Below are positions 5,311-49,324 of a stretch of 64,000 nucleotides of DNA, one piece after another (position 1 is the stretch's first letter; the number at the start of each line of letters is the position of its first letter). The DNA is taken from NCBI RefSeq assembly GCF_033568475.1, contig NC_133122.1, positions 71,385,442 through 71,449,441 of the forward strand. Direction: 5' to 3'. The notes below the pieces were generated by a model. That model made no database searches. It was given only the letters and a program-made list of their open reading frames with translations, and was not told the DNA's origin. The translations under genes were made by a program, and so were the position numbers. The DNA is from Henckelia pumila (taxonomy: Eukaryota; Streptophyta; Magnoliopsida; Lamiales; Gesneriaceae).

Positions 5311-6168
5311 TCATTCCTCCAACCGAACCAGGTTGTTCACATCACGTGGTTGAAAATGGTAAGAAATTATGAGGGTGTACACCTCAAACAACTGCATTTC
5401 ACTTGTCTTGATATTATATGCTACGCAACATTTCTGAGTGTCTTTGGTGTTGAAGAACAACACCTCCCCAGCTTCTAACCAACCAAGGGGATCCAAGAAC
5501 TTCAGGCGATGGGGAAACAAGTCCGGGAATTTGCATATCAGAGGTCTCAAATCAAACCTAAGCAACATAGTCCACGTCCCGGATTCCGGATTCATTTCCC
5601 AAACGTCCCTGTAAAGCTCACTGGATCCACAAACAACAGATAGATTACTGCCCATTGGAAGAAATTTTCTAAGTCCATGTTGTGATTGAGGAGGCAGAGG
5701 AAACTGGAAGATTGTTTCGGTCTCTACATTCAATGTCAAAATGAATGTCGTCCCGATCCAGTGTATAAAGGCTCCAGTAACCAATGGTTTAGAAATGAAA
5801 GCTTCCCTGCTGATCAGAGACAAGTGTTCTACGTCGATACGCCTCCAAACTCTATCAACTCCAACGGTTAGAATTTCAATATTTTGCGACTTGGAAGGGA
5901 ATAAACCACAATGGCGCGCCTGCACCACTTTATACTCCATGGAAGCCTCGTCAAATGCTAAACGAAAGTATTCGTGGGTTTTAATTTGATGGAAATATGG
6001 AGGAAGAATGGCCCTCTGCTTCGTCAAGGGATCACTAACATAAAGAAAACGAAGGTATCTGGGATCGCGGGTCAATATCAAACCATTACAGCTACTCCAT
6101 ACTGGGTATCCAAGCCCCTGGCCGAACTTGGATATCTCGAGACAACCTCTCCGCATTTCCACATAAAT
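5311..6168 (-). pseudogene. F-box protein gene, 3' part of exon 2 (C-terminal F-box-associated region)
   Basis: This encodes the C-terminal substrate-recognition part of a plant F-box protein, a subunit of SCF ubiquitin ligases. The frame runs from the insertion junction (IYVEMRRGCLEISKFG) to TGA at 5311-5313. It has the features of the F-box-associated type: WSSCNGLIL, VSDPLTKQRAILPP, a repeated hydrophobic/Trp pattern, and WEMNPESGTWTMLLR near the end. At 6168 the frame meets the LTR of C2, and codons read beyond it (MACRASTLT) are LTR sequence. The frame is open throughout its 858 bp, so only the insertion breaks it. It pairs with the 5' part at 15967-16377. The exact family member is not identified. 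Confidence 0.85.
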
Positions 6169-8108
6169 TGTTAGAGTAGATGCCCTACAAGCCAAATGTT
6201 GGTCAGGGATTTTATTGACTCAAGTGTAATAACAATCTTTATTTTAATATAATTAATCTTTTATCTGGCATTTTCTTTATCTGTATACCCATGCAAGTTG
6301 CATAGATAAAGACCTTGAATATACTATAGTAAGATATGAGGTTGTACATATGATGACAATCATGAAACACATATTATTAATTACTGTATATTCTAAATCA
6401 AGTTCCTAGTCGATTGGGCCATCCAAAATAAGGATAAGGATCGCTCGAGCTCGAGACTAGAATCTATGATGATGTGTACCACGTTTCATTGGTATGGACA
6501 TAGAGATGTTCAATCATACAGATTGGTGCTCATACGATGAGTTCACTGAACTACCCTCCCTCGGACTTCCCAAGTGGTTATCATTCATCGATTGGATAAG
6601 TCCGTGGTTATGGTTGTACACCATTAGTCCTTACGACCCGAAACAACACTGAGGCTCTACATGCTAGGACTTTACTTTGACTCGTTTACCGACTCCATGA
6701 GGGTCATCAGGTGGCGAGGTTGGGTACACTTGCGACACATGTAGGAGCCAGTGCATTGTAGTCGGGGATTCACCGCTCACCTATGGGTGTGGATATCCTA
6801 TGTGATCAAGTGAGATAATAGTGCATGGAATCTCTGGCCAGAGTGTAAGATGTGTAGTAGAGTAAAGTGTTTACCAAGTTACACATGCGATGCCACTATG
6901 TATTCTCAAAGACATCACATCGTTATCGAAATTGACATGCAACCCTCGATGAACTAATGGTTACAGTTTCGATCGGGATATATGAGATGAAGGGACTGTA
7001 CTGTACGTTAACCATAATCGACTGGTTCTTGCAGGCACTATCAGTGATACCTAGGAAATCATGGGGCGGTGCTACTTAACGCTCTTACCATGATTCGATG
7101 GGTTAAATCAGAAATGAGTTCTAACATTTTATGATCAAGGAGTTGATGCATATAATGAGGCTAATAAGGGTAAGCTTGGACCCACAGCTAGATGTATCCC
7201 TGAACCATTGAGGGTTACACAAGTACTGGTTTTCCTGTTCCCGTTGAGATAATAAATTCAAAGAGTTGAATGTATGATAAAAAAATTTGACTGGATCGAT
7301 AGATAAGCTTTATAAATGGTTTATAAAGGCTTATAGAAATTTTGAGAGCAAAATCAATTAAAAGGGTTTAATTAATTTTTTTCGAGTTGGACTCGGATTT
7401 AAGGACTCACTCAATATATATATAAATGCATATATATATATAGATATATATATATATACGATATATATATATATATGGATATATATAATATATATTTATG
7501 ATTGTGGGACCTTATGTTTATAATAATATATTTATATATATTATATATATATATATTATATTATTATAATATTTAAAAAAAAAAGTTAAATGAGTTGTCG
7601 ACAATAATAGCCGACAATCTCATTTAATCCCTTCAATCAATTGATTGAAGGGATTGACAAAAAAAAATTAAGTGCATTGGATGCACAGAAAATTTTTTCA
7701 TTCTCTCTGCTCGAAGCTCTCAGAAAAGGCAGAGAAAAGAAAATTTTTCTTTGCTGCTAAAAACTCTCTTCTCGACCAGTCATCTTCTTCATTTTTCAAC
7801 GAAAAATTTCTTCTTCTTTTAAGTGCAATTTAGAAGAAGAACAGAAAATCCGGTCGTGGACCTGATTTGAAGAAAGGAGGAAAAATCCAGTTGATTGTTC
7901 GTAGGGATTTACAACAAGAGCTATTTTCGAAATTGTTTCGAAATAGTTGGAGCCATCGTCAATCTTTTAAGATTGATAGGTAAAATTCTTGTAACACCCT
8001 ACGTACATTTATTTAAACCATACGAGTGTCCAAGCATATTTTGAACGTCAAAATAATTTTTTAAACTTTCGCTGCGCCTTGGGCACGATAGAGATTCGAG
8101 ATCCAACA
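6169..8108 (+). repeat. C2 5' LTR
   Basis: It starts TGTTAGAGTAGATGCC and ends GAGATCCAACA. A TATA-like TTATAAAT lies near 7310-7335. A strongly AT-rich block lies at 7410-7570, followed by two hairpin-forming segments (7591-7654). The 3' copy is at 14005-15961. Confidence 0.96.
7591..7654. promoter_or_regulatory. Two consecutive hairpins in the C2 LTR
   Basis: An imperfect inverted repeat at 7591-7622 is followed by a perfect 28-bp palindrome at 7627-7654 (core TCAATCAATTGATTGA). The same pair recurs in the 3' LTR at 15441-15472 and 15477-15504, with the palindrome unchanged. They lie downstream of the probable TATA region, so they may be in the transcript. A role in RNA folding or 3'-end formation is inference. 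Confidence 0.6.
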
Positions 8109-10057: not shown

Positions 10058-13000
10058 ATGTTTAAGATGTCGACACGCAATCCACTTTCTGCTATTCTCG
10101 AACAAAACAAGCTAACCGGACCTAATTATCAAGACTGGCTAAGAAATCTAAAGATTATTTTGAACTCTGAGAGGATTGCGTATGTGCTTGAAAAGAAGCC
10201 ACCGAAGGAAGCAGCTCCTAACATCAGTGAGACTGAGTTAGCCAAGCTTGAGAAATGGTGGGACCATGATCTCCAAGCTAAGAGCTACATCCTGGCTTCT
10301 ATGTCGAATGAACTGCAAAGGCGGTTCGAGGATGCTGCGAATGCTGCTGACATTCAATTTCATCTGAAAGAGTTATACGGTGTTCAAACTCGATCAAAAA
10401 GGCATGCAACTGTGAAAGAAGTCATGACTACACGCTTGCGAGAAGGGGCTTCGGTCCATGAGCATGGTGTTAGGATGATTGGGTTAGTTGAGAAATTAGT
10501 GGGACTCGATGTGGCTATGCCTCATGAGCTCTCGGCTGATATTCTCTTGTTGTCTTTACCTTCCTCGTTCGACGGATTTGTGGTTAATTTTAATATGAAC
10601 AAGATAGAGGCCACCCTTGAAGAGTTGTTCAATATGCTTCTTAATTATGAGGCCACAATCAAGAAAGAAAAGCATGTTCTGCTTTTGGGCTCGTCGTCTG
10701 GGACGAAAAAGGGAGCACAAAACAAGGGAAAGAAGCGTTCTGCCCCTGCAGTTAAGAACAAGCCTAATAAGAAGCCATACAAGAAACCTGCTCAAGGGCC
10801 CAAAAGGCCAAATAAATCAGAACAAGTCTGTTTCCACTGCAACAAGCCTGGACATTGGAGGCTTAATTGCACTGAATATCTTGCCCAGAAGCGTTCTGGC
10901 CATGGTATGTTTTATATTGAAATTAATATCTCAATGAATTCTTCATCTTGGGTATTGGATACCGGATGTGGTTCTCATCTATGCAATGATTTGCAGGTGA
11001 TGACAAGAAGCAAGAAACTTAGAGAAGGTGAGACCTTTCTAAGACTTGGAAATGGAGCAAGGGTTGCTGCCAAGGCCAAAGGAGATATTATTTTAATATT
11101 AAACAATGATTTTAAGTTTCTTTTGAGAGATGTTTTGTATGTTCCTGATTTGGTAAAAAACATTATTTCTATTTCTATGTTTGATAGAGATGGTTATTCT
11201 TATGTTTTTGCAAAAGGTGTTTGCAATATATATAAGAATGAATGTTTGATTGGAACTGGTGAATTACAAAACGATCTCTATAACTTAAAATTAAAAGATA
11301 TTCCATTAAACAATGTCCAAACAATAACAACAAACAAAAGAAGACAAGATAGTCAAAACCCAGCACATATATGGCATGCTAGACTAGGTCATATTTCTCA
11401 AAGAAGGATGCACAAACTAGTGGGAGAGGGCATGTTCGACATGTCAGATATAAACTCTCTACCTACTTGTGAATCTTGTCTAAAGGGAAAAATGACCAAG
11501 ACTCCCTTTAATGGGAATGTAGAACTTTCACATGGTTTTTTGGATTTGATCCACACAGACGTATGTGGCCCGCTAAATGTTAGCACTAAATATGGGCAGT
11601 CCTACTTCATTACCTTTACTGATGATTTTTTGAGGTATGGGTATGTGTATTTGATGAAATACAAGTCTGAAGCATTTGAAAAGTTCAAAGAATTCAAATC
11701 TGAAGTAGAGAAACAATTGGGTAAAAGTATTAAAACACTCCGATCTGATCGAGGTGGAGAATACTTGAGTACTGAATTTTTGGACTATCTTAAAGAGAAT
11801 GAGATTCTCTCACAGTGGACTCCACCAGGAACACCACAATTGAATGGTGTTTCTGAACGTCGAAATCGAACTTTGATGGACATGGTTCGATCTATTATGG
11901 GATTCACTGAATTGCCTAGATCGTTTTGGGGATTTGCGCTTGAAACTGCGGCAATGTTGTTGAATAATGTCCATACGAAGGCAGTGGATAAAACACCATA
12001 TGAGATATGGATGGGAAAGGTTCCCAAATATTCTTATTTGAGAATATGGGGATGTCCTTCTTACGTGAAGCAGACAGTGGGAGACAAATTGGATAGTAGA
12101 TCCATTTTGTGCTACTTCGTGGGATATCCAAAGAACTCTGTTGGATATTATTTCTATCATCCAAAAGAAGCAAATGTGTTTGTTTCTAGAAATGCCACCT
12201 TCTTGGAGAAGGAGTTTCTATTAGATAGAAAAGGCAAAATGATAGAACTCGAGGAAATTCGAGATACACCCACGACTGTAGAAGTTGAACCCAATCTCCA
12301 ACAGCCAGTAGTTGAATCACACATACCTAGAAGGTCTAAAAGAATAATCAGACCGCCTGCAAGATATACGCTTCTTCATGAATAAGGCCATGATGAGCCT
12401 AATGATGGATGCGATCCACGAAACTTCAAAGAAGCAATATCTGATGCTGAATCATCTAAATGGCTTGAAGCTATGCAGTCCGAAATGGACTCCATGTATT
12501 CGAACCAAGTATGGACTTTAGTAGATCCACCTGAGGGAATTGTTTCCATAGGATGCAAATGGATTTACAAGAGAAAACTTGGGGCGGATGGGAAGGTATT
12601 GACCTTCAAAGCAAGACTAGTGGCAAAAGGTTATACTCAAAGGCTAGGAGTTGACTATGAGGAAACCTTTTCACCAGTCGCTATGTTCAAGTCAATTAGA
12701 ATATTGCTAGCCATAGCTGCATGGTATGACTATAAAATATGGCAGATGGATGTGAAAACAGCATTCCTCAATGGAGACATTAAAGAAGAGATCTATATGT
12801 CTCAACCTGAGGGTTTCACATCAGTAGGAAGTGAGCATAAGGTATGCAAACTTCAGAGATCGATCTACGGTCTCAAGCAGGCATCTAGGAGTTGGAATCT
12901 CAAATTTGATAACACTATCAAAGAGTTTGGTTTTGTTAAAAATCCTGAGGAACCATGTGTGTACAAGAAAGTTAGTGGGAGTGCAGTGATATTTCTAGTA

Positions 13001-13990
13001 CTTTACGTTGATGATATCCTTTTTATTGGGAATGATATAGGATTATTGCAATCAACTAAAGTATGGTTAGCAAGTAAATTCTCCATGAAAGACATGGGTG
13101 AAGCATCTTATGTATTGGAAATACAAATCCATAGAGATAGATCAAAGAAGATGCTGGAGCTCACCCAAGTCACGTATATTGATACCATACTTAAAAGATT
13201 CTCTATAGAAGAGTCCAAGAGAGGATAATTACCAATGTGTCATGGTGTTACTCTATCAAAATCAATGTGCCCTAAGACTGATGAAGAGATAGAGATGATG
13301 ACACGTGTTCCCTATGCGTCAGCAATTGGTAGTATCATGTATGGTATGATATCAACACGTCCTGATATAGCATATGCTCTGAGTGTTGCAAGCAGATATC
13401 AGGCTAACCCTGGTCCATTGCATTGGAAAGCCGTGAAAGATATTCTTAAGTACTTGAGAAGGACTAAGAATTTGTTCATGGTTTATGGGGGTGGAGAATT
13501 AAAATTGGAAGGCTATACTGATTCTAGCTTCCAACGTGACGTGGATGATTCGAAATCGACTTATGGTTTTGTATTCATGCTTAATGGTGTTGCTGTCTCT
13601 TGGAAGAGTTCCAAGCAAGACACAGTTGCGGATTCCACCACTGAGGCCGAATACATAGCAGCATCTGCTGCAGCCAAAGAGGCAGTTTGGATGAGGAATT
13701 TTGTCCAAGAGTTGGGCGTTATTCCAAATGAAGTTGATCCAGTCCCGGTGTACTGTGACAACACTGGTGCCATTGCTCAGGCAAAGGAACCAAGGTCTCA
13801 TCAGCGATCCAAACACATACTGAGGAAATTCCACATCATTCGGGAGATTGTGGGAAGAGGAGACATATCTATCGAGAAAGTTGCCTCTGCAGATAATGTT
13901 GCTGATCCACTAACAAAGCCCTTGCCAGGACCATTGTTTGAGAAGCATCGCGAAACAATGGGATTAAAACTAATGAGCAGTTGGCTTTAG
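10058..13990 (+). pseudogene. C2 Gag-Pol polyprotein, two in-frame stops
   Basis: A single Copia polyprotein of about 1310 codons. In order: Gag; zinc knuckle CFHCNKPGHWRLNC at residue 258; protease with DTG at 301; GAG-pre-integrase (HIWHARLGHIS); integrase with catalytic Asp 501, Asp 564 and Glu 600 (DD35E); reverse transcriptase with YVDD around residue 985; and RNase H with STTEAEYIAA and the closing ADNVADPLTKPL. TAA at 12383-12385 falls between integrase and RT, and TAA at 13226-13228 falls between RT and RNase H. Apart from these the frame is open, so few mutations separate it from a coding-competent copy. ATG at 10058 or 10067 could start it. Protein made from this copy would stop after integrase. 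Confidence 0.95.
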
Positions 13991-14004
13991 GGCAAGTGGG
14001 AGAT
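13989..14004 (+). other. C2 polypurine tract
   Basis: The purine-rich AGGGCAAGTGGGAGAT directly precedes the 3' LTR and overlaps the end of the RNase H frame. This is where plus-strand DNA synthesis would be primed. Confidence 0.8.
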
Positions 14005-15269
14005 TGTTAGAGAGATGCCCTGCAAGCCAAATGTTGGTCAGGGATTTTATTGACTCAAGTGTAATAATAATCTTTATTTTAATATAATTAATCTTTTATC
14101 TGGCATTTTCTTTATCTGTATACCCATGCAAGTTGCATAGATAAAGACCTTGAATATACTATAGTAAGATATGAGGTTGTACATATGATGACAATCATGA
14201 AACACATATTATTAATTACTGTATATTCTAAATCAAGTTCCTAGTCGATTGGGCCGTCCAAAATAAGGATAAGGATCGCTCGAGCTCGAGACTAGAATCT
14301 GTGATGATGTGTACCACGTTTCATTGGTATGGACATAGAGATGTCCAATCATACAGATTGGTGCTCATACAATGAGTTCACTGAACTACCCTCCCTCGGA
14401 CTTCCCAAGTTGTTATCATTCATCGAGTGGATAAGTCTGTGGTTATGGTTGTACACCATTAGTCCTTACGACCCGGAACAACACTGAGGCTCTACATGCT
14501 AGGACTTTACTTTGACTCGTTTACCGACTCCATGAGGGTCATCAGGTGGCGAGGTTGGATACAGTTGCGACACATGTAGGAGCCAGTGCATTGTAGTCGG
14601 GGATTCACCGCTCACCTATAGGTGTGGATATCCTATGTGATCAAGTGAGATAATAGTGCATGGAATCTCTGGCCAGAGTGTAAGATGTGTAGTAGAGTAA
14701 AGTGTTTACCAAGTTACACATGCGATGCCACTATGTATTCTCAAAGACATCACATCGTTATCGAAATTCACATGCAACCCTCGATGAACCAATGGTTGCA
14801 GTTTCGATCGGGATATATGAGATGAAGGGACTGTACTGTACGTTAACCATAATCGACTGGTTCTTGCAGGCACTATCAGTGATACCTATCATGGGGCGGT
14901 GCTACTTAACGCTCTTACCATGATTCGATGGGTTAAATCAGAAATGAGTTCTGACATTTTATGATCAAGGAGTTGATGCATATAATGAGGCTAATAAGGG
15001 TAAGCCTGGACCCACAGCTAGTTGTATCCCTGAACCATTGAGGGTTACACAAGTACTGGTTTTTCTGTTCCCGTTGAGATAATAAATTCAAAGAGTTGAA
15101 TGTATGATGAACAAATTTGACTGGATCGATAGATAAGATTTATAAATGGTTTATAAAGGCTTATAGAAATTTTGAGAGCAAAATTAATTAAAAGGGTTTA
15201 ATTAATTTTTTCCGAGTTGGACTCGGATTTAAGGACTCACTCAATATATATATAAATGCATATATATAT

Positions 15270-15305
<36 letters not shown>

Positions 15306-15961
15306 GATATATATATATATGGATATATATAATATATATTTATGATTGTGGGACCTTATGTTTATAATAATATATTTATATATATTATATATATATATAT
15401 ATATTATATTATTATAATATTTAAAAAAAAAAAAGTTAAATGAGTTGTCGGCAATAATAGCCGACAATCTCATTTAATCCCTTCAATCAATTGATTGAAG
15501 GGATTGACAAAAAAAAAAAATTAAGTGCATTGGATGCACAGGAAATTTTTTCATTCTCTCTGCTCGAAGCTCTCAGAAAAGGCAGAGAAAAGAAAATGTT
15601 TCTTTGTTGCTAAAAACTCTCTTCTCGGCCAGTCATCTTCTTTATTTTTCAACGAAAAATTTCTTCTTCTTTTAAGTGCAATTTAGAAGAGAAACAGGAA
15701 ATCCGGTCGTGGACCTGATTTGAAGAAAGGAGGAAAAATCCAGTTGATTGTTCGTAGGGATTTACAACAAGAGCTATTTTCGAAATTGTTTCGAAATAGT
15801 TGGAGCCATCGTCAATCTTTTAAGATTGATAGGTAAAATTCTTGAAACACCCTACATACATTTATTTAAACCATACGAGTGTCCAAGCATATTTTGAACG
15901 TCAAAATAATTTTTTAAACTTTCGCTGCGCCTTGGGCACGATAGAGATCCGAGATCCAACA
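14005..15961 (+). repeat. C2 3' LTR
   Basis: It begins TGTTAGAGAGATGCC and ends ATCCAACA, followed directly by the TAAAT target duplication. It is slightly longer than the 5' copy, mainly in the AT-repeat block at 15244-15430. Confidence 0.96.
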
Positions 15962-18890: not shown

Positions 18891-20430
18891 TGTTAGAGTA
18901 GGTGTCTATCGAGCCAAGTATTGGCTGAGGATCCTTGTAATAACTCTTGTATGAAAATATTTAGTTTAAATAATATTTTAATTTATTAATTTGACACATC
19001 TTTATTTATATACTCATTCTAGTTGCATAGATAAAGCTCTTGAATATACAAATAGTAAAAATAATATGAGATGGTCATGTGATGACTATCATGAAACTCA
19101 TATGGAATACTGTATAAGCTAAACCGTTCCTAGTCGATTCAGCCGTAAAAAAAAAAAGGATAAAGGTCCCTCGAGCTTGAGACTAGTATTTGCAATGTGA
19201 TACCACGTTTCATTTGTAGGGGACATAGTGATGTCAAAGCATGCAGATAAGTGATCCTTGTAGAGTACACTGAACAACCCTCTCTAAAAGATTTTCCAAG
19301 TGGTTCTCACTTATCGAGTGAAAAGATCCTAGCTTATGGTTGTACACCATTAGTCCTTACGACCTGGGACAACATGGAAACTCTATGTGCTAGAGCTTCA
19401 CTTTGACTTGTTTACCGACTCCACTGGGCCCATCAGGTGGCAAGGTCGGGTATTGTGTCGAAACATGTAGAAGTCGATGCATTGTATTCAGGGATTCACC
19501 GCATACCTTTGGGTATAGATATCCTATGTGATCTCATGTATTTGTATTTTGAAATCTCTTATCAAAGTAGGTGGTAATTAAGAAAGAAGTTTTTTTAATT
19601 ACAACTTTGATGCAACTACGGCATGACACATAGATATCGATTCTATGACAACTCTCGATATACCAATGGTTGTCTAAATGTCGGGATATATGAGTTGAAG
19701 GGACATATTGTACGCTAACCATAAATGAATGGTTCTTGCATGCACTATCATTTGATACCTAGGGAGTCATGTAAGTGATGCTGCTAGATGTTTAACATGA
19801 CTGGTTGGGTACCAAAAGACTTGAGTTCTATCGTTCTTGTTATCAAGGAGTTCGTAAATAAGAATGAAGCTATATACAGTAAGCTCAAATAGAGAATTGT
19901 TGATCCCGAATCACATGGAGATGTGAATCCACTGCTAGTTGTATCATTGAACCATTGAGGGTCACACAAGTACTGACTTTTTATATCCCGTTGAGAATAA
20001 AATTAGTTCAATGAGTTGAACGGCTTGTAAAAGAGTTATAAGCGAGATAAATTAGAAGTATAAATTCTAAAGGAGAATAAGGGAGAAAATAACTTTTAAT
20101 TTGTGAAAGTGTTCCACGATGAAAGTTGACTTAAATAAATAATAGTTTTTGAAAATAGTAATTTTCAAAACTATTATTATGAACTTAATTAATTAATTCA
20201 AGAGTTGAATTAATTAAACACTAGTGGACCTCGTAGAGTCCAAATAATTCAATTAATTCAAGTGTTGAATTAATTAAACACTATTAGGTCTTGTAGAGCC
20301 CAAATGCAAATAGTGTTGAATAGTTATTCTATCAGTGCGCTTGAATGAGTTCAAGTAGGATTTAATTAATTGATTGGACTTAAATAGGTTTGAGCTTCAT
20401 AATTAATTAAACATTTCTCGAATTTTGGTA
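18891..20430 (+). repeat. LTR fragment related to the C2 family, inserted in the Gypsy fragment
   Basis: The sequence starts TGTTAGAGTAGGTGTCTATCG exactly where the Gypsy homology stops. It follows the C2 LTR closely in several blocks: AGTTGCATAGATAAAG, GTACACCATTAGTCC and CATTGAGGGTCACACAAG. It is diverged, and it includes a local duplication near 20175-20290. The 3' end could not be defined, because the region runs into the palindromic composite at 20459 and no matching GTTTG duplication was found. It may be a truncated or solo LTR. Confidence 0.7.
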
Positions 20431-20527
20431 ACAATTACTGCAATACAGCTGAGACAAGTGTAATGGACTGGGCTGGTCCAGCCATTCTTGCTCTCATGGT
20501 CTTCTCCCCCCTGGTGGGGAGTTTTTG

Positions 20528-20606
20528 CCCTCCCCAGGAATCGAACCTTGTACCCCAGTCTTAAATACAAAGTTTTATGACTCCTGGTACCATTGAGCTA
20601 GGGATG
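20528..20606 (-). promoter_or_regulatory. tRNA-like module with Pol III A and B boxes (palindrome 1)
   Basis: On the minus strand an A box TAGCTCAATGG (20590-20600) is followed 53 bases later by a B box GGTTCGATTCC (20537-20547). Both fit the tRNA-gene consensus. Between them GAGTCATAAAACT could form an anticodon-like arm with CAT. The 5' and 3' ends (GCCATCCC and GGGGAGGGC) are only partly complementary, so this is a tRNA-derived promoter head rather than a functional tRNA gene. Confidence 0.7.
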
Positions 20607-20820
20607 GCAAAAACTCCCCACCAGGGGGGAGAAGACCATGAGAGCAAGAATGTCTGGGCCAGCCCAGTCCATTACAAAAAAGGGCGCCCTTTTATGTAAC
20701 GACCCACGTCCTTCCACCGCATCCCTCCCCAGCTTATAGCATGGGCTCGGACTGCATGGTTCGACGGGCATCGCACTCATGACCTCCCCACTCCTGAAAG
20801 TGGGTTTTTTTCCCTCCCCA

Positions 20821-20920
20821 GGAATCGAACCTTGTACCTCCGGGCTTAAGTACAAGGTTTTATGATTCCTGGTACCATTGAGCAAAGTTACTTAAGCCTG
20901 GAGGTACAAGGTTCGATTCC
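20821..20920. promoter_or_regulatory. tRNA-like module with duplicated B box (palindrome 2)
   Basis: On the minus strand an A box-like TTGCTCAATGG (20875-20885) precedes a B box GGTTCGATTCC (20821-20831). The opposite arm carries a second perfect B box on the plus strand (20910-20920). The module matches that of palindrome 1 closely, while the outer arms differ, so both derive from one tRNA-headed family. Confidence 0.65.
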
Positions 20921-21045
20921 TGGGGAGGGCAAAAACCCACTGCCAGGAATGGGGAGGTCATGAGTGCGATGTCCGTCGAACCATGCGGTCCGAGCCCATG
21001 CTATAGGCTGGGGAGGGATGCGGTGGAAGGACGTGGGTCGTTACA

Positions 21046-22429
21046 ACAAGTACTCGATCATGCCTGGACAAGAACACTTCAAAATATGTGAAATTTATCA
21101 AGTCCATCATGATATATGAAAATCTAGAACCTGAGATTCATGCTAGTCAACCGATATCTCAAATGAATACTCTTTACCATCGATGATTGAGATATATAGA
21201 AACCCAGAGTTATAAGTCAAATTGGAACAAAAATAGACAAATTTGGTATAGGTTTGGTCAAACAAGACAAGACTATATGAAGTTACATCATAGACCACCC
21301 TATTTCAAAAACAAATAAGTTCACAAGAGATATTGGAGGTCTAATTTGCCAAATCACTCTAGACATACACCTCCTATGAACACACAACACAATGCACGAA
21401 AGGTATCACCTTGGCCCTATTCTCTGATGAATGCATGTACAAGAAAATCTATAAAAATAATTCAAGTATGGGATCCTAAAGGACTAATTCACCCTGGACC
21501 CACGTAGATATGAGTATCATAACATATATTTTATTTATGATTGCAGGTTATAGGAAATGAAAGAAAATTTAAAGGGAAAGTCAAGAGATCATAAGGCAGA
21601 AGATAAGAGAAGGCAGAAGCAGCAGAGACTGAAGATCAGTTACTCTTATCAAAAGGATTCATATCAAGTGGTGTTGTCAAGAAGGAAATAGATATAGATC
21701 AAGAACTAAAGATGATCAAGATCTGGAGATAATTATTAAGGGGGAAGAAGATAATCTGAAGACCAGTCAAGTAAAGATATGAGCTCAATTTGGACCTGAT
21801 CGGACCAGCTTGAATTAAACCAGCTCAATTATGGGCCAAATCAGTTCGAATAGACCATATCAAAGTTTGGCCAGACCAGATCAGTCAAACCAGCCCGATG
21901 AACAATAAAATTAGCTTAACTTCAAAAAAATTACAGCAATGAAAATATGATCATTTCAACAACTGAAGAGAAGATCAATTAGTGAGACATCACCCATTAA
22001 GGGAGAAGGAATCAGTCGAGAGAAGATAAACTGAAGCAATAGAGGATCAGTCCAACCAGTGGACTCGGTCTATCAAATGATTTCACAGCTTTACACTCAA
22101 GAGGTGACAAGCACTCCACCAATGCTTACAAGTAATTCTCATCAAGTGGTGATTGACCAAAAAAAAAAAAAAGGAAAGTTAGGTCATATTTGAAGTTTCG
22201 AAGATCAGTCTACATAGCAAAACTGAAGAATTCAAGATTTTGAAGATTCAAGAATTCAGTTTTGAAGAACAGTTCCAGTGGACTACAAGGGCAAGTATGT
22301 TTGTCAAAAAGAGGAAAATGACATTGGATTAAATCAAGAATAAACCAATTTTTAAACCAGTTTAGGAAACAGAAAGACATCTCATTGATTTAATTGCTTA
22401 GTTTTGTCAAACACCAAAAAAGACGAAAT
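21046..22429. other. Noncoding stretch, in part 3' interior of a SIRE-like Copia element
   Basis: The sequence is open to no long frame. Its right end (a polypurine-like CCAAAAAAGACGAAAT) directly precedes an LTR start at 22430, so at least the last part is the 3' noncoding interior of that element. Where the element begins on the left cannot be seen. A poly-A run lies near 22160. Confidence 0.45.
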
Positions 22430-26601: not shown

Positions 26602-28115
26602 TGTAGTGACCCAACCCGGATCCACTACCTAATCAGAGTTATAGTAAAAGCGCACTCAATAAAAGCTTTAAGCGTAAGGTGCGGATAATAAAAATACAAC
26701 AAATCCAATCGGCAGAATACAACCGACGCTATCACAAGTGTATAAATACTGTTATACAACCAAATCGAAGGTTCAGGGTAAATAAATCCCTACCCTCTAA
26801 AACCTCGCACTCCCCAAGCTCAATCTTGCTGAGAGCCGCCTGGACCGTCCAGCCTCAAACCTGCCCCGCCACAAGGTACACAATACCCAAACACAGGGGC
26901 GTGAGCTAAAACGCTCAATACGAAGCAATGATATAAATACAAATATGCGCACGCAGATGATTTAAAACTCAAGTGAAAACACTTGCTCATGGCGCCGAGA
27001 ATATACAGTACCGGCTAGAGAGCTACTCTGCGGGGTACTCGTATATTCCATATCAGGGCTGAGCCAACCCCATCCTGACCCGAATCCAAAACAGGATACA
27101 AGTCTCATATGGAAACTGTCATACCTGACTCGAGTCCAAAATGAGATCATCGTTCCCTATGGAGACTGTCAATGACTCACATCTCTCCGGATGCAGTCAC
27201 ACGTAAAATCATGTATGTGCTAAGATGGTAAAACATGCTAAAACATTATAAAGCATATAGCACATACTCATGCAAGCATACATGCAAATATATCATGTCG
27301 GCTATCTCGGTCAGTACTTACGTACCTCTAACACTGCTGGTCAAACCTAGCTCCACTGACCAAGACTCCAAGCCTACTAGTCCAGTCTACTGCTACTACA
27401 ATGCAAATATTCATGTATCAACAATAAAACTCTAAAATCCTTAACTAAGCTATTGCATACTCCTAAATATTTTTAGGATGCCAAAGCTATACCTGCGTCC
27501 GTCGTTAGCCCTTTGCTGACGATAGCCTCAAAACTAGGTCGTAGCTCCGCGACGACGTCTAGATCACTAAGCCACTTCCGGATTCCACGTAGGATGCCTA
27601 GATCTCCCTAGATCTGAGTTAGAAGGCTTAGGAATTGAGAGAGAAGAGAGGAAATGTGTGAGTCACAAATGAGCCTCGGCTCCTCTATTTATAGAAGACG
27701 TTTGGGCCGTCCGAACTCGGCTTCGGGCCTTCTGAACTGGTTCGGATCCTCCGATCATAACTTCGGATCATTCGAACACGATCGGACCGTCCGATCTTTA
27801 CTTCGGGTCCTCCGAAGTCCCATCAGTGATGTCATCCATGACGTCATCTTGCTGACGTAATTGATGACATAAGCCTAAACCCTGTTCGAGTCCTCCGATC
27901 CCACCGACGGAGCCTCCGATCCTCTTCGCATCCTCCGAACTCCAGTTCGGAGCGTCCAAACTTGCTGAACCAATTCAACTAATTCGAGTGTTCTAAATCC
28001 ATTTCTGAAGTCCGTTATCCCAACAGGAACTTACTTAATCATGTTTTACTTAATCTAGACATGATCACGTGATTAATTACTCATTAATCACTAATTAGAA
28101 ATGCGGGTTACTACA
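26602..28115 (-). repeat. G2 3' LTR (left copy)
   Basis: On the plus strand it begins TGTAGTGACCCAACCCGG and ends GCGGGTTACTACA. It keeps a 55-bp segment near 26785-26840 that the right copy lacks. The TATA box on the minus strand is at 27686-27693, preceded by the palindromic motif array at about 27700-27960. Confidence 0.95.
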
Positions 28116-28238
28116 TTCTCCCCCACTTAAGAAATTTCATCCTCGAAATTTAAGTCTTAGAGAAAAACATAAATAGCCAACCAAATGTTCTTTATTACAA
28201 CTGAACAAGTATAACTCGATACAAAAAAGTACAAAATC

Positions 28239-31200
28239 TCAAAATAACTCGGGGTGCTCGGCTAACATCCGGCTCTCCAACTCCCAAGTAGCTTCCTCTG
28301 TCCCTCTGCATTGCCACTGTACCATAACCAATGGTATGCGCTTGTTACGAAATACCTTGTCCTTCCTGTCAAGAATCCGTAGGGGTTTCTCCACATACGA
28401 TAGATCCCGATCTACCTTTAACTCGGTCGGATGCAAAATATGCGACTCGTCCGCCACATACTGCCTCAACAAGGACACGTGGAACACATCGTGGATCTCC
28501 GAAAGATCGGGTGGCAAGGCCAGACGATAAGCCACATCCCCAACCTTCTCGAGAATCTCGAACGGACCAATAAATCTAGGTGTCAGCTTATCCTTGCAAA
28601 CAAACCTCATCACCTTCCGGAAAGGTGACACACGCAATAAAACATACTCTCCTACCTCAAAATGAAGTGGCCTACGGTGGGTGTTCGCGTAGCTAGCCTG
28701 TCGATCCTGGGCTGCCTTAACCCTGCGTCGGATCAACTCTACTGCATCAATCATCTGCTGAATCATCTGAGGACCCTCAACCTGACGCTCGCCAACCTCG
28801 TCCCAAAACAAAGGTGTACGACAACGGCGTCCATAAAGAGCCTCAAATGGTGCCATGTCAATGCTGCGATGGAAACTATTGTTGTAGGCGAACTCCACCA
28901 AGGGTAAATGATCATGCCACGCTGGACCAAAATCCATCACCGCCGCGCGAAGCATATCCTCTAGAGTGCGAATAGTACGCTCCGACTGTCCGTCCGTCTC
29001 TGAATGATAAGTCGTACTCAAGCTCAAAGTAGTACCAAGGGCTCGCTGGAAACTACCCCAAAATCTCGAGGTGAACCTCGGATCTCTATCGCTGACAATG
29101 CTCAATGGAATCCCATGCAATCAAACAATCTCCAGTACATACAATTGCGCCATCCTATCAAAGGTGTAATCGCGGTTATAGGGAAGAAAATGCGCTGACT
29201 TCGACAACCGATCCACGACAACCCAAATAGCATCACAATTCCTGGAAGACATAGGCAAAAGGGTGACAAAGTCCATCGTCACATGCTCCCACTTCCATTC
29301 AGGAATCTCTAGGCTGTGAAGTAACCCTCCGGGTCGTCTAAACTCTGCCTTGACTTGTTGACACACAAGGCATCGGGACACAAACTGATAGACACTGCGC
29401 TTCATCCCTTTCCACCAAAATCGAGTGCGAAGATCCTTATACATCTTCATGCTGCCTGGATGTACAAAGAATCGACTGCGGTGAGCTTGCGATAAGATCT
29501 CATCCCTCAAAGTAGAATCCTCGGGTACCACAACTCGACCAGAAAGACACAACAGATCGTCTCCTTGCAGATGAAAACCAGAAGTATTATCACCCTCAGC
29601 CAGGCGGGCTAACTTCTGAGTCTTCAGATCAGAATTCTGAGCTTCCCGGATTCGTCTGTATAGCGCTGGCTCTGCAAGCACAGAAGAGACACGAATCTCT
29701 TGTTGTTCTTTCTTATGACGGAATGTGAATCCCAAAGAACAACACTCCTCCACTGCCTTCGAAACCGAACTGGTACGAAGGGAACTCACATAAACCTTGT
29801 GACTAAGCGCATCAGCAACGGGATTTGAAGAACCTGGATGGTACTTGATCTCACAATCGTAATCCTTCAACAGATCCATCCAATGACGCTGCCGCATGTT
29901 CAACTCAGCCTGAGTGAACAGATATTTCAAACTCTTATGATCGGTGAAGATCTCAAATCGTTCTCCGTACAAATAGTGACGCCATATCTTAAGAGAAAAG
30001 ACAATGGATGCAAGCTCTAAATCATGTACGGGATAGTTCTCCTCGTGAGTCTTCAGCTGTCTGGAAGCATAAGCGATCACATGGCCATTTTGAGTCAACA
30101 CACACCCCAAACCCTGGAGAGAAGCATCAGTGAAGACTACAAAACCACCTGATCCATACGGTAAAGCAAGAACTGGAGCTGTCGTCAGACGACGTCTCAA
30201 CTCACGAAAACTGTCTTCACAAGCATCAGACCAAACAAAAGAAGCGTCTTTCTTCGTCAACTGAGTCAAAGGCTTAGCTATCTGAGAGAAATTCTCCACA
30301 AAACGACGATAGTATCCTGCTAAACCAAGGAAACTACGAATCTTAGAAGCTGTAGTTGGTCGTGACCAATTCAAAATAGCCTCTGTTTTGCTAGGATCAA
30401 CAGATACACCCTCCTGAGAAATGACATGACCAAGGAACACAAATCGGTCAATCCAGAAGTCACACTTACTCAGCTTCGCGTACAACTGTCTTTCCCTCAA
30501 GACCTGCAGTACAGTATAGAGATGGTAGGCATGCTCATCCATGCTGCAAGAATACACCAGAATGTCATTGATGAACACCACCACGAACTTATCCAGAAAG
30601 TCACGGAAAACTATGTTAATCAGATCCATAAAAATAGCTGGAGCATTCGTCAAACCAAACGGCATCACTAGAAACTCATAGTGTCCATACCACGTATGAA
30701 ATGCTGTCTTAGGAACATCCTCCTGTCGAACTCGCAACTGATGATACCCAGACCGAAGATCAATCTTCGAATAGACAGAAGTACCCTGCAACTGATCAAA
30801 GAGATCATCTATCCGCGGAAGAGGATACTTATTCTTCACTGTCGCTTGATTCAATTGGCGGTAATCGATACACAACCGCATTGAACCATCCTTCTTCTTG
30901 AAAAACAGTACTGGGGCTCCCCATGGCGAAACACTAGGTCTAATATAACCCTTATCAAGAAGATCTTGCAATTGCTTCTGCAGCTCTTTCATTTCTGACG
31001 GTGCCAATCGGTAAGGAGTTCTGGAAATCGGTGCAGTCCCTAGCACAAACTCAATGCCAATCTCAATCTCCCTTACTGGTGGCAAACCTGGAATCTCCTC
31101 CGGAAACACATCTGGAAAGTCACGAACCACTAGTATCTCTCGGATATCTGGCTCTCCTAAGGATGCGTCAATGGCGTAGATAAGGTAGCCTTCCCCGCCA

Positions 31201-31628
31201 GACTCTAAAGCACGCCGGGCCTTCAGAGCTGAAACCACTGGCATCGGGGGTCGCGCTCCCTCACCATAGAAATACCATGACTCTTCATCCTCTGGACGAA
31301 ACTGGACAAACCTCTGATAGCAATCCACTATCGCTCGGTAGGTAGTCAATAGATCTATCCCAATGATGCAATCGAAATCCTCCATCGCTAGAATCATTAG
31401 GTTAGCACTAAGCTGATGTCCCTCAAAATCCAAAACACAACTCACAACTAGACGCTTGGCTAAAACCTCGCTCCCCATAGGATTAGAAACCACTAGCAAC
31501 ACGTCTAAAGGAATAAATGGCAATCTATACTTCTTAGCAAAACGTGCTGAGACAAAAGAATGCGATGCACCGGTATCAATCAAAACATATGCAGGAAAAC
31601 CACATAAACTACAGATACCTGCAATCAT
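28239..31628 (-). pseudogene. G2 Pol: protease, RT, RNase H, integrase, chromodomain-like tail
   Basis: The frame begins in protease ([10 protein letters not shown]). RT follows ([15 protein letters not shown]), in which the catalytic box reads FINDILVYS: the first Asp of the usual FIDD is Asn (codon at 30567-30569), so RT is probably dead. RNase H ([15 protein letters not shown]) is next. Integrase has the zinc domain ([20 protein letters not shown]) and core residues in [18 protein letters not shown] and TDGQSER. The C-terminal region ([16 protein letters not shown]) is chromodomain-like. A TGA at 29121-29123 interrupts integrase just before LHGIPLSIV, and the same codon is TGA in G3 and G4. 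Confidence 0.94.
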
Positions 31629-32731
31629 CCGGTCACTGTCAGCCTCTGCCTGCTCCTAGTTAAGCGCAAAGACCTGACCCTGGGTACGTGGCCTCAAAGA
31701 AGAATGACCCCGAGAAGGAGTCTGAGTAGGCTATCTCTGAGACTGCTGCGGATACTGGCGCTGCTGCGAATACTGCTGCTGGAAAGGTGGCTGCTGGTAC
31801 TGAGGTGGCTGAACAGATGCCTGAGAACCTCCGGAACCACTCGCTGCCCCAATCAGCATAGGACAATCTCTCTTCATGTGACCCTCCTGGCCACACTAGA
31901 AACATGCAGTGGTCGATCGACCACACTGCCCTGGCGGATGTCTGCGTCGGCACTGAGTACACCGGTTCGGTCTCTGTCCACCAAAACGATGCACTCCACC
32001 AGATCCAGAGGAAGAAGAAGAAGTCCCTTCTGGCTTCTTGAAGGACTGTCCTCTCGGACCCAAAGGAATAGAGCTCGCTGGCCTGGAAGAAGAAGAGTAA
32101 AGTCCCCTGTTCCTCCGAATACTATCATCGGCATGGCGACAACGGTCCACCAAATCCTTGTAAGTCCCATCATCGCCCACAGCAACCATACGATGAATGT
32201 CAGGGTTCAAACCCTGAAGGAAATGATCAAACTTCGCCATAGAACTATCAGCAATATGAGAACAAAAGGGTAGCAGATCAAAGAACTTCTGCTGGTACTC
32301 CTCGATCGTCATCGTCCCCTGTCGCAAACTCAACAACTCACTGGCTTTCGCCTGACGAAGAGCTGGAGGAAAATAAAATCTCTGATAAGCAGAACGGAAC
32401 TCGACCCAAGTAGCTGCACCTCTAGCTGCTATGAACGGTGCGGAATTAGATCTCCACCACTTCCTTGCTCTGCCCTCAAGCATAAAGGCAAGAATCTCCA
32501 TCCTATCCTCAGCCGTGCAACAGAACTCCTGGAAGCACTGCTCCATCCTCTCCATCCAATCCTTCGCCTCTTCGGCTGTCTCACCACCCATCAAAGGCCT
32601 CGGGCTAACTTCCTTAAATCTATGCATGCTCACTCACCTGCGCTCCTCGGGCTTTTCCCGATGTCTACGATCATCTGGATCGCCCAACGACCGCCGTCTA
32701 CGCTACCGTGACTCTCGTCGTAATCTGCCAT
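31629..32731 (-). pseudogene. G2 Gag, in frame with Pol, several stops and a frameshift
   Basis: ATG at 32731 gives MADYDESHGSVDGGRW, the same start as G4 Gag. A one-base deletion near 32681, where G4 has GGGGTGATCC and G2 has GGGCGATCC, shifts the frame. A CGA-to-TGA change lies at 32634-32636. After that the retrotransposon Gag domain (WWRSNSAPFIAARG, YFPPALRQAKASELLSL, FLQGLNPDIHRMV) is open. The first zinc knuckle is CTQCRRRHPPGQC. The second is cut by TAG at 31896-31898 (glutamine in G4). TAG also occurs at 31731 and 31656, again where G4 has CAG. Gag and Pol are in one frame with no programmed shift. Confidence 0.92.
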
Positions 32732-32791
32732 CTGTTACATAAGAACAGATAATTACATAATCCGCTTTACGATATTCCCAGTGCAATGCAT

Positions 32792-32804
32792 CGCTCTGAT
32801 ACCA
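32792..32804 (-). other. G2 primer-binding site (initiator tRNA-Met)
   Basis: On the minus strand TGGTATCAGAGCG lies four bases after the 5' LTR end. Confidence 0.93.
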
Positions 32805-32808
32805 AAAA

Positions 32809-34328
32809 TGTAGTGACCCAACCCGGATCCACTACCTAATCAGAGTTATAGTAAAAGCGCACGCAATAAAAGCTTTAAGCGTAAGGTGCGGATAATAAAA
32901 ATACAACAAATTCAATCGGCAGAATACAACCGATGCTATCACAATTGTATAAATATTGTTATACAACCAAATCGAAGGTTCATGGTAAACCGCCTGGACC
33001 GTCCAGCCTCAAACCTGCCCCGCCACAAGGTACACAATACTCAAACACAGGGGCGTGAGCTAAAATGCTCAATACGAAGCAATGATATAAATACAAATAT
33101 GCGCACGCAGATGATTTAAAACTCAAGTGAAAACACTTGCTCATGGCGCCGAGAATATACAGTATCGGCTAGAGAGCTACTCTGCGGGGTACTCGTATAT
33201 TCCATATCAGGGCTGAGCCAACCCCATCCTGACCCGAATCCAAAACAGGATACAAGTCCCATATGGAAACTGTCATACCTGACTCGAGTCCAAAATGAGA
33301 TCATCGTTCCCTATGGAGACTGTCAATGACTCACATCTCTCCGGATGCAGTCACACGTAAAATCATGTATGTGCTAAGACGGTAAAACATGCTAAAACAT
33401 GATAAAGCATATAGCACATACTCATGCAAACATACATGCAAATATATCATGCCGGCTATCTCGGTCAGTACTTACGTACCTCTAACACTGCTGATCAAAC
33501 CTAGCTCCACTGACCTAGACTCCAAGCTTACTAGTCCAGTTTACTGCTACTACAATGCAAATATCCATGTATCAACAATAAAGCTCTAAAAGCCTTAACT
33601 AACCTATTGCATACTCCTAAATATTTTTAGGATGCCAAAGCTATACCTGCGTCCGTCGTTAGCCCTTTGCTGACAATAGCCTCAAAACTAGGCCGTAGCT
33701 CCGCGACGACGTCTAGATCACTAAGCCACTTTCGGATTCCACGTAGGATGCCTAGATATCCCTAGATCTGAGTTAGAAGGCTTAAGAATTGAGAGAGAAG
33801 AGAGGAAATGTGTGAGTCACAAATGAGCCTCGGCTCCTCTATTTATAGATGACGTTCGGGCCGTCCGAACTCGGCTTCGGGCCCTCCGAACTGGTTCGGA
33901 TCCTCCGATCATAACTTCGGATCGTCCGAACACGATCGGACCGTCCGATCTTTACTTCGGGTCCTCCGAAGTCCCATCAGTGATGTCATCCATGACGTCA
34001 CCTTGCTGACGTAATTGATGACGTAAGCCTAAACCCTGTTCGGGTCCTCCGATCCCACCGACGGAGCCTCCGATCCTCTTCGGATCCTTCGAACTCCAGT
34101 TCGTACTCCGATCCCACCGACGGAGCCTCCGATCCTCTTCGGATCCTTCGAACTCTAGTTCGGAGCGTCCGAACTTGCTGAACCAATTCAACTAATTCGA
34201 GTGTTCTGAATCCATTTCTGAAGTCCGTTATCCCAACAGGAACTTACTTAATCATGTTTTACTTAATCTAGACATGATCACGTGATTAATTACTCATTAA
34301 TCACTAATTAGAAATGCGGGTTACTACA
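32809..34328 (-). repeat. G2 5' LTR (right copy)
   Basis: It is flanked by the primer-binding site and by the TATTT duplication. Compared with the left copy it lacks about 55 bp near 32990. It carries a 59-bp tandem duplication at 34047-34164 inside the palindromic motif array. Confidence 0.95.
33838..34175 (-). promoter_or_regulatory. G2 LTR TATA box and upstream palindromic motif array
   Basis: TATAAATA is read on the minus strand at 33840-33847. Upstream on the minus strand (33854-34175) about ten copies of a 15-bp imperfect palindrome of the type TTCGGA-N3-TCCGAA occur (for example TTCGGATCGTCCGAA). Their position makes them candidate promoter-proximal protein-binding sites. No binding factor is known to me. 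Confidence 0.65.
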
Positions 34329-37130
34329 TATTTTGTTTAACCTGTTTATGTTATTGGTGCAAGAGATATATTGATAGCTGAAAGCTTTGTTATGTCTGAA
34401 CCTCTGTACTATAAAAGAGAATCTGTGACTTGAATTGACGAATTGAGCTACAGTTTTTGATGAAATGAAATGGAACATGATTTTGTTCGTACTTAAGACA
34501 TATGTTTATGTTGCATGATAGATGATGATGCAATAAACAAGTACAGAATAACAGAAGATTGATTGTAAGAAGCTATTAAGCGATTAGATCAACAAGAACA
34601 GAACGTGCATATGAATATGATGATATGATTTGGAATACAGAACTAAGATTCTTTTAATTCGGTTCAGCATATATTATGATGAATTACAGAAAGGTTCCAA
34701 AATAAGTATATTCTATGCACTAGATCTGTTCAAGAACGAAACCAGAATTGGTAGATATATCAATGGTTAGAATTTACAGATATATTTCAGGTAAGATTTT
34801 CGACTTTAGTTTAAGTTGTGAATTGGAATTCAATAGAGAATTTATGAGTTTATGAATTGAATATGGTTATGGAGGTTTATAGCATAGATGAAGTTATGGA
34901 AAACAGTTACAGTTGAGTCTTTTCTTTGATTATGCTGAAGCTATTACATCACTTGGAGATATGATTCTTTAATTGTTTGAGATCGATTTTGGGGTTTTTG
35001 TTATGCAACCTCAATCGATATTGATTGACTCTCATTTTTTATTCATAGAGCCAGAATTGATTCACTCGTTTTGAGTTATATGATGCAGGTGAGTTGTTTT
35101 CACTTAGCAGAGTTTGTTATCCAGAAAATTTGATTATGGATGACCCTGATTGAGAGATTTCTCGATCTTGACTCATTTCTTTTGATTTTGAGAATTATTG
35201 ATCCTTTGATGGATATTTCAGTATTTATTGAGATTATTGGCTCGTAACTGATAGAAAGATTAGATTACTATCCCGGTTATAGGTTGATTGTGTGATTTTC
35301 AATACTTTGGAAAACAGAAATGAAGAATGAGATCGGCATTCGATCAATTGATTTCAGATTTCTATGTATTCTGGCTGAATATTCAGACGAATGCATAACC
35401 AATCCAAATGATTTTCGATTGGAAATGAGCCAGATTTGTTAAGAAGATGAAAGAAACACAAAAAGTAAATCAAAGCAGTTAGAATTCAGTAGAGAATGCC
35501 AGGTTGAAATATGAATTGAAGTCTCAGATCAGAGTGGATGAATTCAATTGTGACTGATTATTTGATTGTGCCAGATATTTCAGAAATGAGATATCAAATT
35601 CTGAAAGAAACGTACAACAAGAAATTCAATATTCATCCAATGGTTGTTTATCAGAAGATAAAGAATGCAAATGTGACAGAATTCGTGCGTTTTAGAGCTT
35701 AAACACATAAAGAGTTTCAGTTGAAGTTGAAAATCATTGACCAGATGGGTTCAATGACAGTTTAAAAACTCCAGAATTGGAATGAGATCATGATTTGAGG
35801 GATTATTTTATGAAACTACCAAGATTAATCAGTATGCGTGATGCGAATTATGGTAGTTATGATCAGATTGATTTGAATTACTGAGTAAGATGATCTGTAA
35901 TTATGATCAGATCACTGATAAGTGGTCAGAATTGTTGTGAGATGGAATAGTAAGCCAAGAATGAATGTTTCAGATGGAAACATGAGGTTTACTATTGAAG
36001 TGTGATACATATTATCAAAAGCTCTGAGTATTCTTAGATGTGAGAATACAGTATATTATCCTTAGACTGATGGATAGTCAGAACAGCTGAATTAGATTTT
36101 ACGAATATGTTGTACTAGATGTGATACAGATATGAATAGATCGTTGTTCAGACGTTAATGATATGATGAGATTACAGGAATTATTAAAATCTATTGTCGA
36201 GATAGGAACTTTAGATTTATTTGATAGATTGTGGCATTGATTGATCTATGTTCTGAGTGTGTGGTTATATGAGATTGCATTATAACATCCTCTGATCGAT
36301 GGATTATCTGCGTTAATTCTTCTGATTTTCGAGGATATACTCAGAATTCTAATACCTGATTCGGTATTAGTTGACTTGATGTATTGCCACTTGATTATTA
36401 TGATTCCTGTGAAAGCTATCGAATCCATATCGAAACAGTGTTTTGACTATACGATGAGAATAAAACCAGATTTATTTGTGTTGAAATGATATTTCAGAGA
36501 TATCAGATCAGAATTGATTTGAAAAATGCAGAGACTGTGAATATGAATCTGTATAGAAGAAGAGTAGTATATGATATACAGATCAGAATATGAATGTTGA
36601 ATACAGAAGTGAAAGCTATGAATAGAATGACAGTGTGAACTTGATATATGTTCGATGCAGAGCATAGAATGATATAGAGAAATAAACAAGTCGTCACAAA
36701 AGTTAAACTTCACTGTATGAGATTTCAGACAGAGTCAGTGATTTCAGTGAAAGAATTATTCTTTCCAGCGTGATATGATGGATCATATTTGCTCCAAGTA
36801 TCTAACTAAGGAAATATCAGTTAGATTTTGTCCTAGGTACGTTAATCAGATGAAGTTGATATTGAAAATATTCTGAGCTAAATCGAATATTCGACAGATC
36901 CTTGATTGGGGAGAAAAACAGCTCAGAGAGATTTTTTTTCAGTTAATGAAAATACAGAATAGATGCAGAATAGAAGAGATAACCTGACAAGAGATTAAGA
37001 GATGAGATATGAAGTTCAGAGTTATATGATTGAAGTGAAAATCAATTCATATAATCATTCGGTCTATCAGATTTGATAGTAAGATTGAATGCGATTTCGA
37101 GGACGAAATCATTCTTTAGAGAGGAGGAAT
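34329..37130 (+). pseudogene. G1 Pol remnant
   Basis: This is the continuation of G1 interior after G2. Frames are shredded by TGA/TAA and no catalytic motif is intact. Evidence for pol is mainly position plus the end: the text FEDEII near 37100 and the motif GATTTCGAGGACGAAATC match the conserved end of related Gypsy interiors (compare TTTCGAGGACGAAATTTC before the G4 3' LTR). Reading frames antisense to it at 36246-36713 have no support. Confidence 0.6.
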
Positions 37131-44697: not shown

Positions 44698-44701
44698 TTT
44701 T

Positions 44702-44714
44702 TTATATCAGAGTG
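44702..44714 (+). other. G4 primer-binding site, mutated
   Basis: At the position of the primer-binding site the sequence is TTATATCAGAGTG instead of TGGTATCAGAGCG. Three bases differ, two of them in the TGG that should pair with the tRNA CCA end. Priming from this copy would be impaired. Confidence 0.7.
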
Positions 44715-44774
44715 ATGCATTGCACTGGGAATATCGTAAAGCGGATTAAGTAATTATCTGTTCTTATGTAACAG

Positions 44775-49201: not shown

Positions 49202-49324
49202 GATTTTGTACTTTTTTGTATCAAGTTTATACTTGTTCAGTTGTAATAAAGAACATTGGTTAGCTATTTATGTTTTCCTCTAAGACTTAAATTTCGAGGA
49301 CGAAATTTCTTAAGTGGGGGAGAA

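Follow-up and report, generated by a model that had tools for sequence, protein, structure and literature searches.

Locus

The window analysed here, a stretch of 64,000 nucleotides from Henckelia pumila, carries at 20459-21045 an insertion of 587 bp with TGTAA...TTACA ends, flanked on both sides by the 5-bp target-site duplication ACAAG (20454-20458 on the left, 21046-21050 on the right). An earlier note, made from the sequence alone, had proposed one mobile unit with TG...CA ends and a 5-bp duplication at this place, and its coordinates proved exact. The insertion consists of two palindromic modules and, between them, an 18-bp palindromic spacer (AAAAAGGGCGCCCTTTTA, 20677-20694), also reported earlier, which is the tail-to-tail junction of two units. 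The two palindromes themselves were recovered with arm lengths other than the 72 and ~155 bp first given: in the first (20459-20676) the arms measure 79 nt and are 95% complementary, and in the second (20695-21045) they measure 124 nt at 92% plus 50 nt at 94%. No second copy of the element was found elsewhere in the window.

The first module (20459-20676) is of type A and holds two type-A units head-to-head with their tails outward. The complete unit lies on the reverse strand at 20459-20601, with the 5' end CTAGCTC at 20595-20601, the A box TAGCTCAATGG at 20590-20600, the B box GGTTCGATTCC at 20537-20547 (both on the reverse strand) and the tail at TGTAA 20459, and the second copy, on the forward strand at 20601-20676, is truncated and runs from about unit position 65 to the tail. 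The second module (20695-21045) is made up of two type-B units in the same head-to-head arrangement. The near-complete one (20695-20883, reverse strand) has its tail at TGTAA 20695, its head at about 20883, an altered A box TTGCTCAATGG at 20875-20885 and the B box GGTTCGATTCC at 20821-20831, both boxes on the reverse strand; the 5'-truncated second copy (20889-21045, forward strand) carries a second B box GGTTCGATTCC at 20910-20920, also forward, and ends in the tail TTACA at 21041-21045.

Each palindrome consists of a unit joined head-to-head to a truncated second copy of the same unit, and the tRNA-like head is the inner end of the arm, with no separate arms enclosing it. The modules do share a head and differ in their arms, as had been noted. 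The picture of a tRNA head enclosed within an inverted dimer gives way to one in which arm and head form a single RNA unit and the palindrome is a head-to-head join of two such units, most likely a self-copy.

A tRNA-Gln(ttg) was called by ARAGORN at 20525-20609 on the reverse strand, spanning the fold-back point. We take this not to be a real tRNA gene: Rfam gave no tRNA match in 20400-21100 at E up to 1, and ARAGORN found no tRNA in the 17 related loci scanned. In our reading, the fold-back point at this locus happens to restore an acceptor stem, hence the call. In the same interval Rfam returned six matches, five of them miRNA-like and lying on the hairpins and one to a lncRNA, all below their gathering scores, and no 5S match at E up to 1. 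On folding, either strand of each module yields a long near-perfect RNA hairpin.

The unit and its families

The genome comprises 884.7 Mb in 133 contigs, and the 587-bp sequence has at least 226 matches in it. Allowing up to 3 mismatches, the spacer with TTACA/TGTAA on its flanks is present at 224 places, compared with 0 for a reversed control pattern. We analysed 98 unit-bearing loci, namely the window locus (L001), 37 loci chosen by the element (L009-L045), 40 chosen by the exact spacer (L049-L088) and 20 chosen by the tRNA-like head (L089-L108). The spacer-chosen loci are the first places among the 224 (C1 to part of C3), and the head-chosen loci were drawn from at least 67 head matches. 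L002-L008 were left out because L009-L015 span the same places with more flank, as were L046-L048, which are unrelated stretches. L019 and L022 (inverted copies of one insertion, judging by their flanks) and the apparent near-duplicates L056 and L057 were all kept in the counts.

All 98 loci are built of one kind of unit of about 140-205 nt. It opens with a tRNA-like head that carries A and B boxes, continues in a body containing CATGAG or CATGAA, and finishes in its TTACA tail. The A box, TAGCTCAATGG or TAGCTCAAGTGG, stands at the extreme 5' end. Among 13 unit representatives (pairwise identity 57-96%; F1 and FC belong to the same family) every one has the A box at no more than 1 mismatch and, at positions 54-57, the B box at 0-1 mismatch. 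At least a dozen families can be told apart, with arbitrary borders between them, and a few units look mosaic (e.g. L061 and L036). In an alignment of 14 representatives the families differ in head and body together. The earlier proposal that the architecture arose more than once is supported, and we saw no need for the exchange of arms between fixed heads that had been offered with it.

The borders of the unit were read from its contacts with other sequence. Where heads abut other DNA (32 ends), 29 start at TAGC, and C precedes it in 23 of these 29. The 3' border comes from direct tail-to-head joins, 12 of them exact matches genome-wide, to a pattern which itself demands AAAAGGG, and 20 in the fetched loci; it lies at TTACAWAAAAGGGCG or slightly shorter or longer. 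Since the head ends and the direct tail-to-head joins fix both borders, the unit is about CTAGCTC...TTACAWAAAAGGGCG, with a consensus of roughly 5'-CTAGCTCAATGG (A box) ... GTTCRANNC (B box) ... TTACA-WAAAAGGGCG-3'. A longer unit, ending in a Pol III U-run past the full spacer, was considered, and the same direct joins argue against it: 11 of the 12 exact ones stop before CCCTT (C86:600089 runs into it), and it is reached in none of the 20 in the fetched loci. TTTT is absent from 11 of the 13 representatives, so Pol III termination would lie beyond the unit, for instance in the T-run of the spacer.

Six head-chosen loci hold one full unit alone (L090, L091, L092, L093, L101 and L106). At L090 the unit is flanked by the 7-bp repeat ATTTGGC, or by 5 bp if the unit is taken to start at GC, a repeat length matched by 1% of 300 random placements. 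At the other five, any flanking repeat is shorter than 4 nt. Some single units, which adjoin LTR ends, may be composites cut at the tip.

Ends and target-site duplications

Candidate ends, TGTAAYR and YRTTACA, were paired within each locus, giving 97 pairs in 50 of the 98 loci. An exact 5-bp duplication at TGTAA/TTACA is present in 23 of these 50, compared with a mean of 0.12 loci over 624 other offset pairs, among which the top values are register shifts of the same duplications. The remaining 75 of the 98 loci have no exact 5-bp duplication, 48 of the 98 having no candidate pair, and many of the loci without an exact duplication are truncated, interrupted or decayed. At L017 and L020, which are outside the 23, 5-bp repeats adjoin mutated ends.

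The 23 composites measure 232-1615 bp and contain 2-9 units or pieces, and the tails at both of their outer ends follow from the search design. The composite at L013 also holds about 550 bp of other DNA. No common motif is evident among the 23 target duplications. The outer ends are without the 10-11 nt of tail that lie beyond CA, a larger loss than the 2 nt that retroviral integrases usually remove and a point against the cycle proposed below. Miniature modules of tail ends only were seen at L058:1243-1264 (22 bp) and L085:1189-1220 (32 bp), both inside composites with exact 5-bp duplications, and they hint that insertion may require no more than a short end motif.

A structured RNA

A consensus fold of 14 aligned representatives, which include window types A and B, has five helices: the first pairs the 5' end with CATGAGT, two more lie nested within the head, a fourth follows the head and the last is at the tail. 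In this alignment 93.3% of 519 cells are paired and 13 pairs have changed on both sides. None of 500 shuffles reaches any of five fold measures, some of which kinship of the sequences can inflate (least so the counts of pairs and of pair types), and slid partners pair in only 28-50%. RNAalifold alone gives 29 pairs, 11 with compensatory changes; because the final fold was edited by hand, with one RNAalifold pair removed and the tail helix added, it leans on the same 14 sequences. For three units compared with shuffles, the sense strand folds with z = -3.8, -5.0 and -5.1 and the antisense strand with -1.5, -2.4 and -1.9. From its sequence, then, the unit is predicted to behave as a structured RNA that is tRNA-like in its promoter motifs.

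Joints between units

The two kinds of inverted joint differ in form. In tail-to-tail joints the gap is 18 nt in 62 of 84 cases, with a range of 15-27, and this constant length would be explained by the overlap of two GGGCG(C) ends. Of 91 head-to-head joints between assigned units, 79 have one or both heads starting no later than unit position 12, and the other head starts anywhere up to position 165 (full list of 133 head-to-head joints). Genome-wide, 71 places match the exact head-to-head pattern, compared with 0 for the control; 50 of these exact joins comprise 22 with GAGCTAG|CTAGCTC, 22 with one extra nucleotide and 6 that are different. Seventeen truncated type-B head joints were scored, of which 12 have an overlap of 0-2 nt and 5 have 1-6 unexplained bases.

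The partners at the two kinds of joint also differ. With family labels merged by hand before the final counts, partners belong to the same family in 86 of 91 head-to-head joints and 43 of 75 tail-to-tail joints (Fisher p=1e-8); with unmerged labels the figures are 81 of 91 and 41 of 75. The spacer-chosen loci make the cleaner comparison, because element-chosen loci favour A-B tail joints, and among them 37 of 39 head joints and 24 of 35 tail joints are same-family (p=0.0047). The head-chosen loci alone, a small set, show no difference (11 of 12 head versus 4 of 5 tail, p=0.51). Same-family tail-to-tail joints (41, unmerged labels) exceed the 14.1 expected from random pairing over all loci, so tail partners are not drawn freely.

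Identity between two arms hardly separated the models (0.941 versus 0.926 in family B), and shared rare variants were therefore used as the test. Head partners share more of these per 100 bp than unrelated pairs do: 0.85 versus 0.21 in family B (n=40), 0.58 versus 0.08 in family A (n=8) and 0.45 versus 0.09 in family C (n=11), with p at most 0.001 by resampling in all three families. Tail partners share 0.35 in B (n=16), 0.00 in A (n=2) and 0.18 in C (n=10), which is not clearly above unrelated pairs. Set directly against each other, head and tail joints differ only marginally (0.74 versus 0.26 per 100 bp, p=0.082); pairs otherwise drawn from the same locus fall between the two, at 0.44. Gene conversion between arms would be expected at tail-to-tail palindromes too.

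Because head partners are mostly of one family and share rare variants, head joins look like self-copies. We read the head-to-head joints as probable fold-back self-copies and the tail-to-tail joints as probable unions of separate, partly related molecules. With almost no homology at the head joints, DNA end joining may instead have made them.

LTR-type neighbours and possible helpers

The window contains frames which we take to be Copia- and Gypsy-type polyproteins. Direct repeats of 1.9 kb, 96% identical, at 6167-8108 and 14003-15961 flank Copia-type frames at 10058-13990, and together they are apparently an LTR element. Related Gypsy-type elements in both orientations, with LTR-like ends TGTAGTGACCC...GGTTACTACA, lie at 26602-34329 and 43189-54884. 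The Gypsy-type LTRs in the window begin TGTAGTGACCCAACC, near the type-B end TGTAACGACCCACG.

Genome-wide, TTACA is followed within 8 nt by the tRNA-iMet primer-binding word at 708+690 places. Twenty of these places were read. At L114 the end is GGGTCGTTACA, the same 11 nt with which the type-B unit finishes, and at L117 it is AGGTCGTTACA. A coding LTR element whose LTR ends in GGGTCGTTACA or GTCCATTACA would be a candidate helper.

Heads or broken units were also observed 0-7 nt from apparent LTR-element termini, at L091:1202, L042:1502, L073:1361, L072:1069, L101:1239, L026:947 and the left end of L068. These could be chimeric cDNA joined before insertion, or LTR insertion preferring the tip of the palindrome. 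Other sequence may separate two complete heads. At L041:1430-1967 it is a 538-bp LTR-type miniature element with the PBS-like TGGTATCAGAGA, which has full-length relatives elsewhere at about 76-85% identity and no evident target duplication. At L032:1271-1674 a MITE-like element of ~400 bp, with inverted ends by eye, occupies the palindrome centre, and at L017:1280-1338 there are nearly 60 nt of foreign sequence.

Comparison with known elements and alternative explanations

SINEs use LINE machinery and make longer, variable duplications, and LTR elements have a primer-binding site and two LTRs. The mix of features found here fits none of the mobile-element classes tested. No description of such an element was found in the open-access literature, as far as titles and the openings of abstracts reveal.

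Among the alternatives, a DNA transposon with long terminal inverted repeats (a MITE or fold-back element), served by a Gypsy-integrase-like transposase such as that of Ginger2/Tdd, would account for the inverted repeats and the TG...CA ends. In the sections of PMC2836005 consulted, Ginger2/Tdd elements likewise have TGTNR termini, inverted repeats and 4-5 bp duplications, and Ginger1 duplicates a 4-bp target, CCGG/CCGT. The duplications here are of 5 bp, not 4, and that motif is absent from all 23. The unit also keeps a covarying RNA fold that is stronger on one strand, and the head junctions are for the most part different from one joint to the next (133 joints). No coding copy was found among the 23 composites, the part of the family examined for coding, whose longest stop-to-stop frame is 187 aa. 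We consider this explanation unlikely.

A tandemly arrayed TRIM, in which the palindromic module is the LTR and the spacer a tiny internal region, is decidedly unlikely, despite sharing the TG...CA ends, the 5-bp duplications and the habit of forming arrays. Tandemly arrayed TRIMs are common, and the Zma-SMART array of maize, with two inverted TRIMs, is, like the composites here, enclosed by a 5-bp duplication (PMC4717578, in part). Our composites differ from these in consisting of SINE-like RNAs placed mostly head-to-head and tail-to-tail, in the near-constant palindromic tail junction, and in often holding different families within one insertion. This last point weighs against the TRIM explanation, as the LTRs of one insertion should match, whereas adjoining modules are often of different families (A-B at L001; also L087); the window locus has an A module and then a different B module. 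The nearest known system in spirit is Cassandra, a TRIM whose LTR carries a 5S-type Pol III promoter. Cassandra is also short and non-coding, with a Pol III-type promoter, LTR-type ends and arrays (PMC7215508, in part), but its arrays alternate direct LTRs and internal domains, whereas here the units are inverted and the promoter is of tRNA type. Its LTR has 5S sequence, unlike the window interval 20400-21100. Segmentation of the 98 loci gave mainly inverted units, with few direct tail-to-head joins (20). The tRNA-iMet primer-binding site TGGTATCAGAGC, the one primer searched for, is absent from both strands of the 23 composites at up to 2 mismatches. The element has the TG...CA ends and a duplication within the 4-6 bp typical of TRIM and LTR elements; since the search revealed neither a direct LTR pair nor a tRNA-iMet primer site, a standard TRIM is improbable.

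The palindromes might instead have formed at the DNA level from an LTR-like element, by replication fold-back, end joining or an assembly artefact. Assembly can create palindromes, and the head junctions do show short or no microhomology. This origin is nevertheless quite improbable given the exact 5-bp duplications at many separate places, the near-fixed 5' end of the unit (in 23 of 29 full edge heads TAGC is preceded by C), the RNA fold and the many families.

Plant tRNA-derived SINEs share with the unit a 5' A box, a B box (unit positions 54-57) and a length of about 140-205 nt, and differ from what is seen here in the inverted chains with 5-bp rather than variable ~7-20 bp duplications, the A box at the extreme 5' end and the tail WAAAAGGGCG. 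That an ordinary SINE simply inserted twice at one place is highly improbable: the A and B boxes, the existence of single units and the L090 repeat (the only single-unit repeat readable as SINE-type by its 7 bp) speak for it, but exact 5-bp duplications enclose whole composites at 23 of the 50 loci with candidate ends, the window locus included, 5 of 6 single units lack any flanking repeat as long as 4 nt, and the same spacer recurs at 224 places, so that duplications and layout exclude an ordinary SINE and the case against novelty raised in the earlier note, of ordinary SINEs elsewhere and a unique double insertion here, does not hold.

Proposed cycle and significance

The composite architecture itself we hold with high confidence. 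We further consider it probable that a non-autonomous retroelement inserted here as one piece, with a single structured RNA unit as its replicating form and with a cycle in which we infer Pol III transcription, the identities of the enzymes and the order of the steps. The unit RNA would be transcribed from its tRNA-like internal promoter, presumably by Pol III. A reverse transcriptase borrowed from another element would copy it from the tail towards the RNA 5' end, and the 3' end of the cDNA would then fold back, with little or no match, and prime the second strand; the product would be an inverted dimer, joined head-to-head at a point that varies from copy to copy. Tails of different molecules would join through their self-complementary GCG(C) ends, which would produce the constant 18-bp spacer and chains of modules. 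Lastly, an LTR-type integrase would cut at the outer CA and insert the chain, duplicating 5 bp of the target. The earlier suspicion of a new architecture is borne out, and the interpretation given with it is replaced by that of a fold-back, LTR-integrated, SINE-like retroelement.

It is about as likely as not that this amounts to a third route to a non-autonomous retroelement, in which self-primed fold-back cDNA of a SINE-like RNA is concatenated by its tails and inserted by the integrase of an LTR retrotransposon. Such a route would do without a primer tRNA, LTRs or target-primed synthesis, and the end of the unit would imitate an LTR end. On this reading, chains that mix families suggest the joint copying of several RNAs inside one particle or compartment.

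The element would combine a SINE-like RNA with LTR-type insertion, in groups which are usually treated as separate. Its junctions would record how each DNA copy arose, and with hundreds of places in the genome the copying and joining steps are testable from sequence. The match between the end of the element and a resident LTR end makes the helper findable. The element is also a natural source of long hairpins in H. pumila and would be expected to feed small-RNA silencing.
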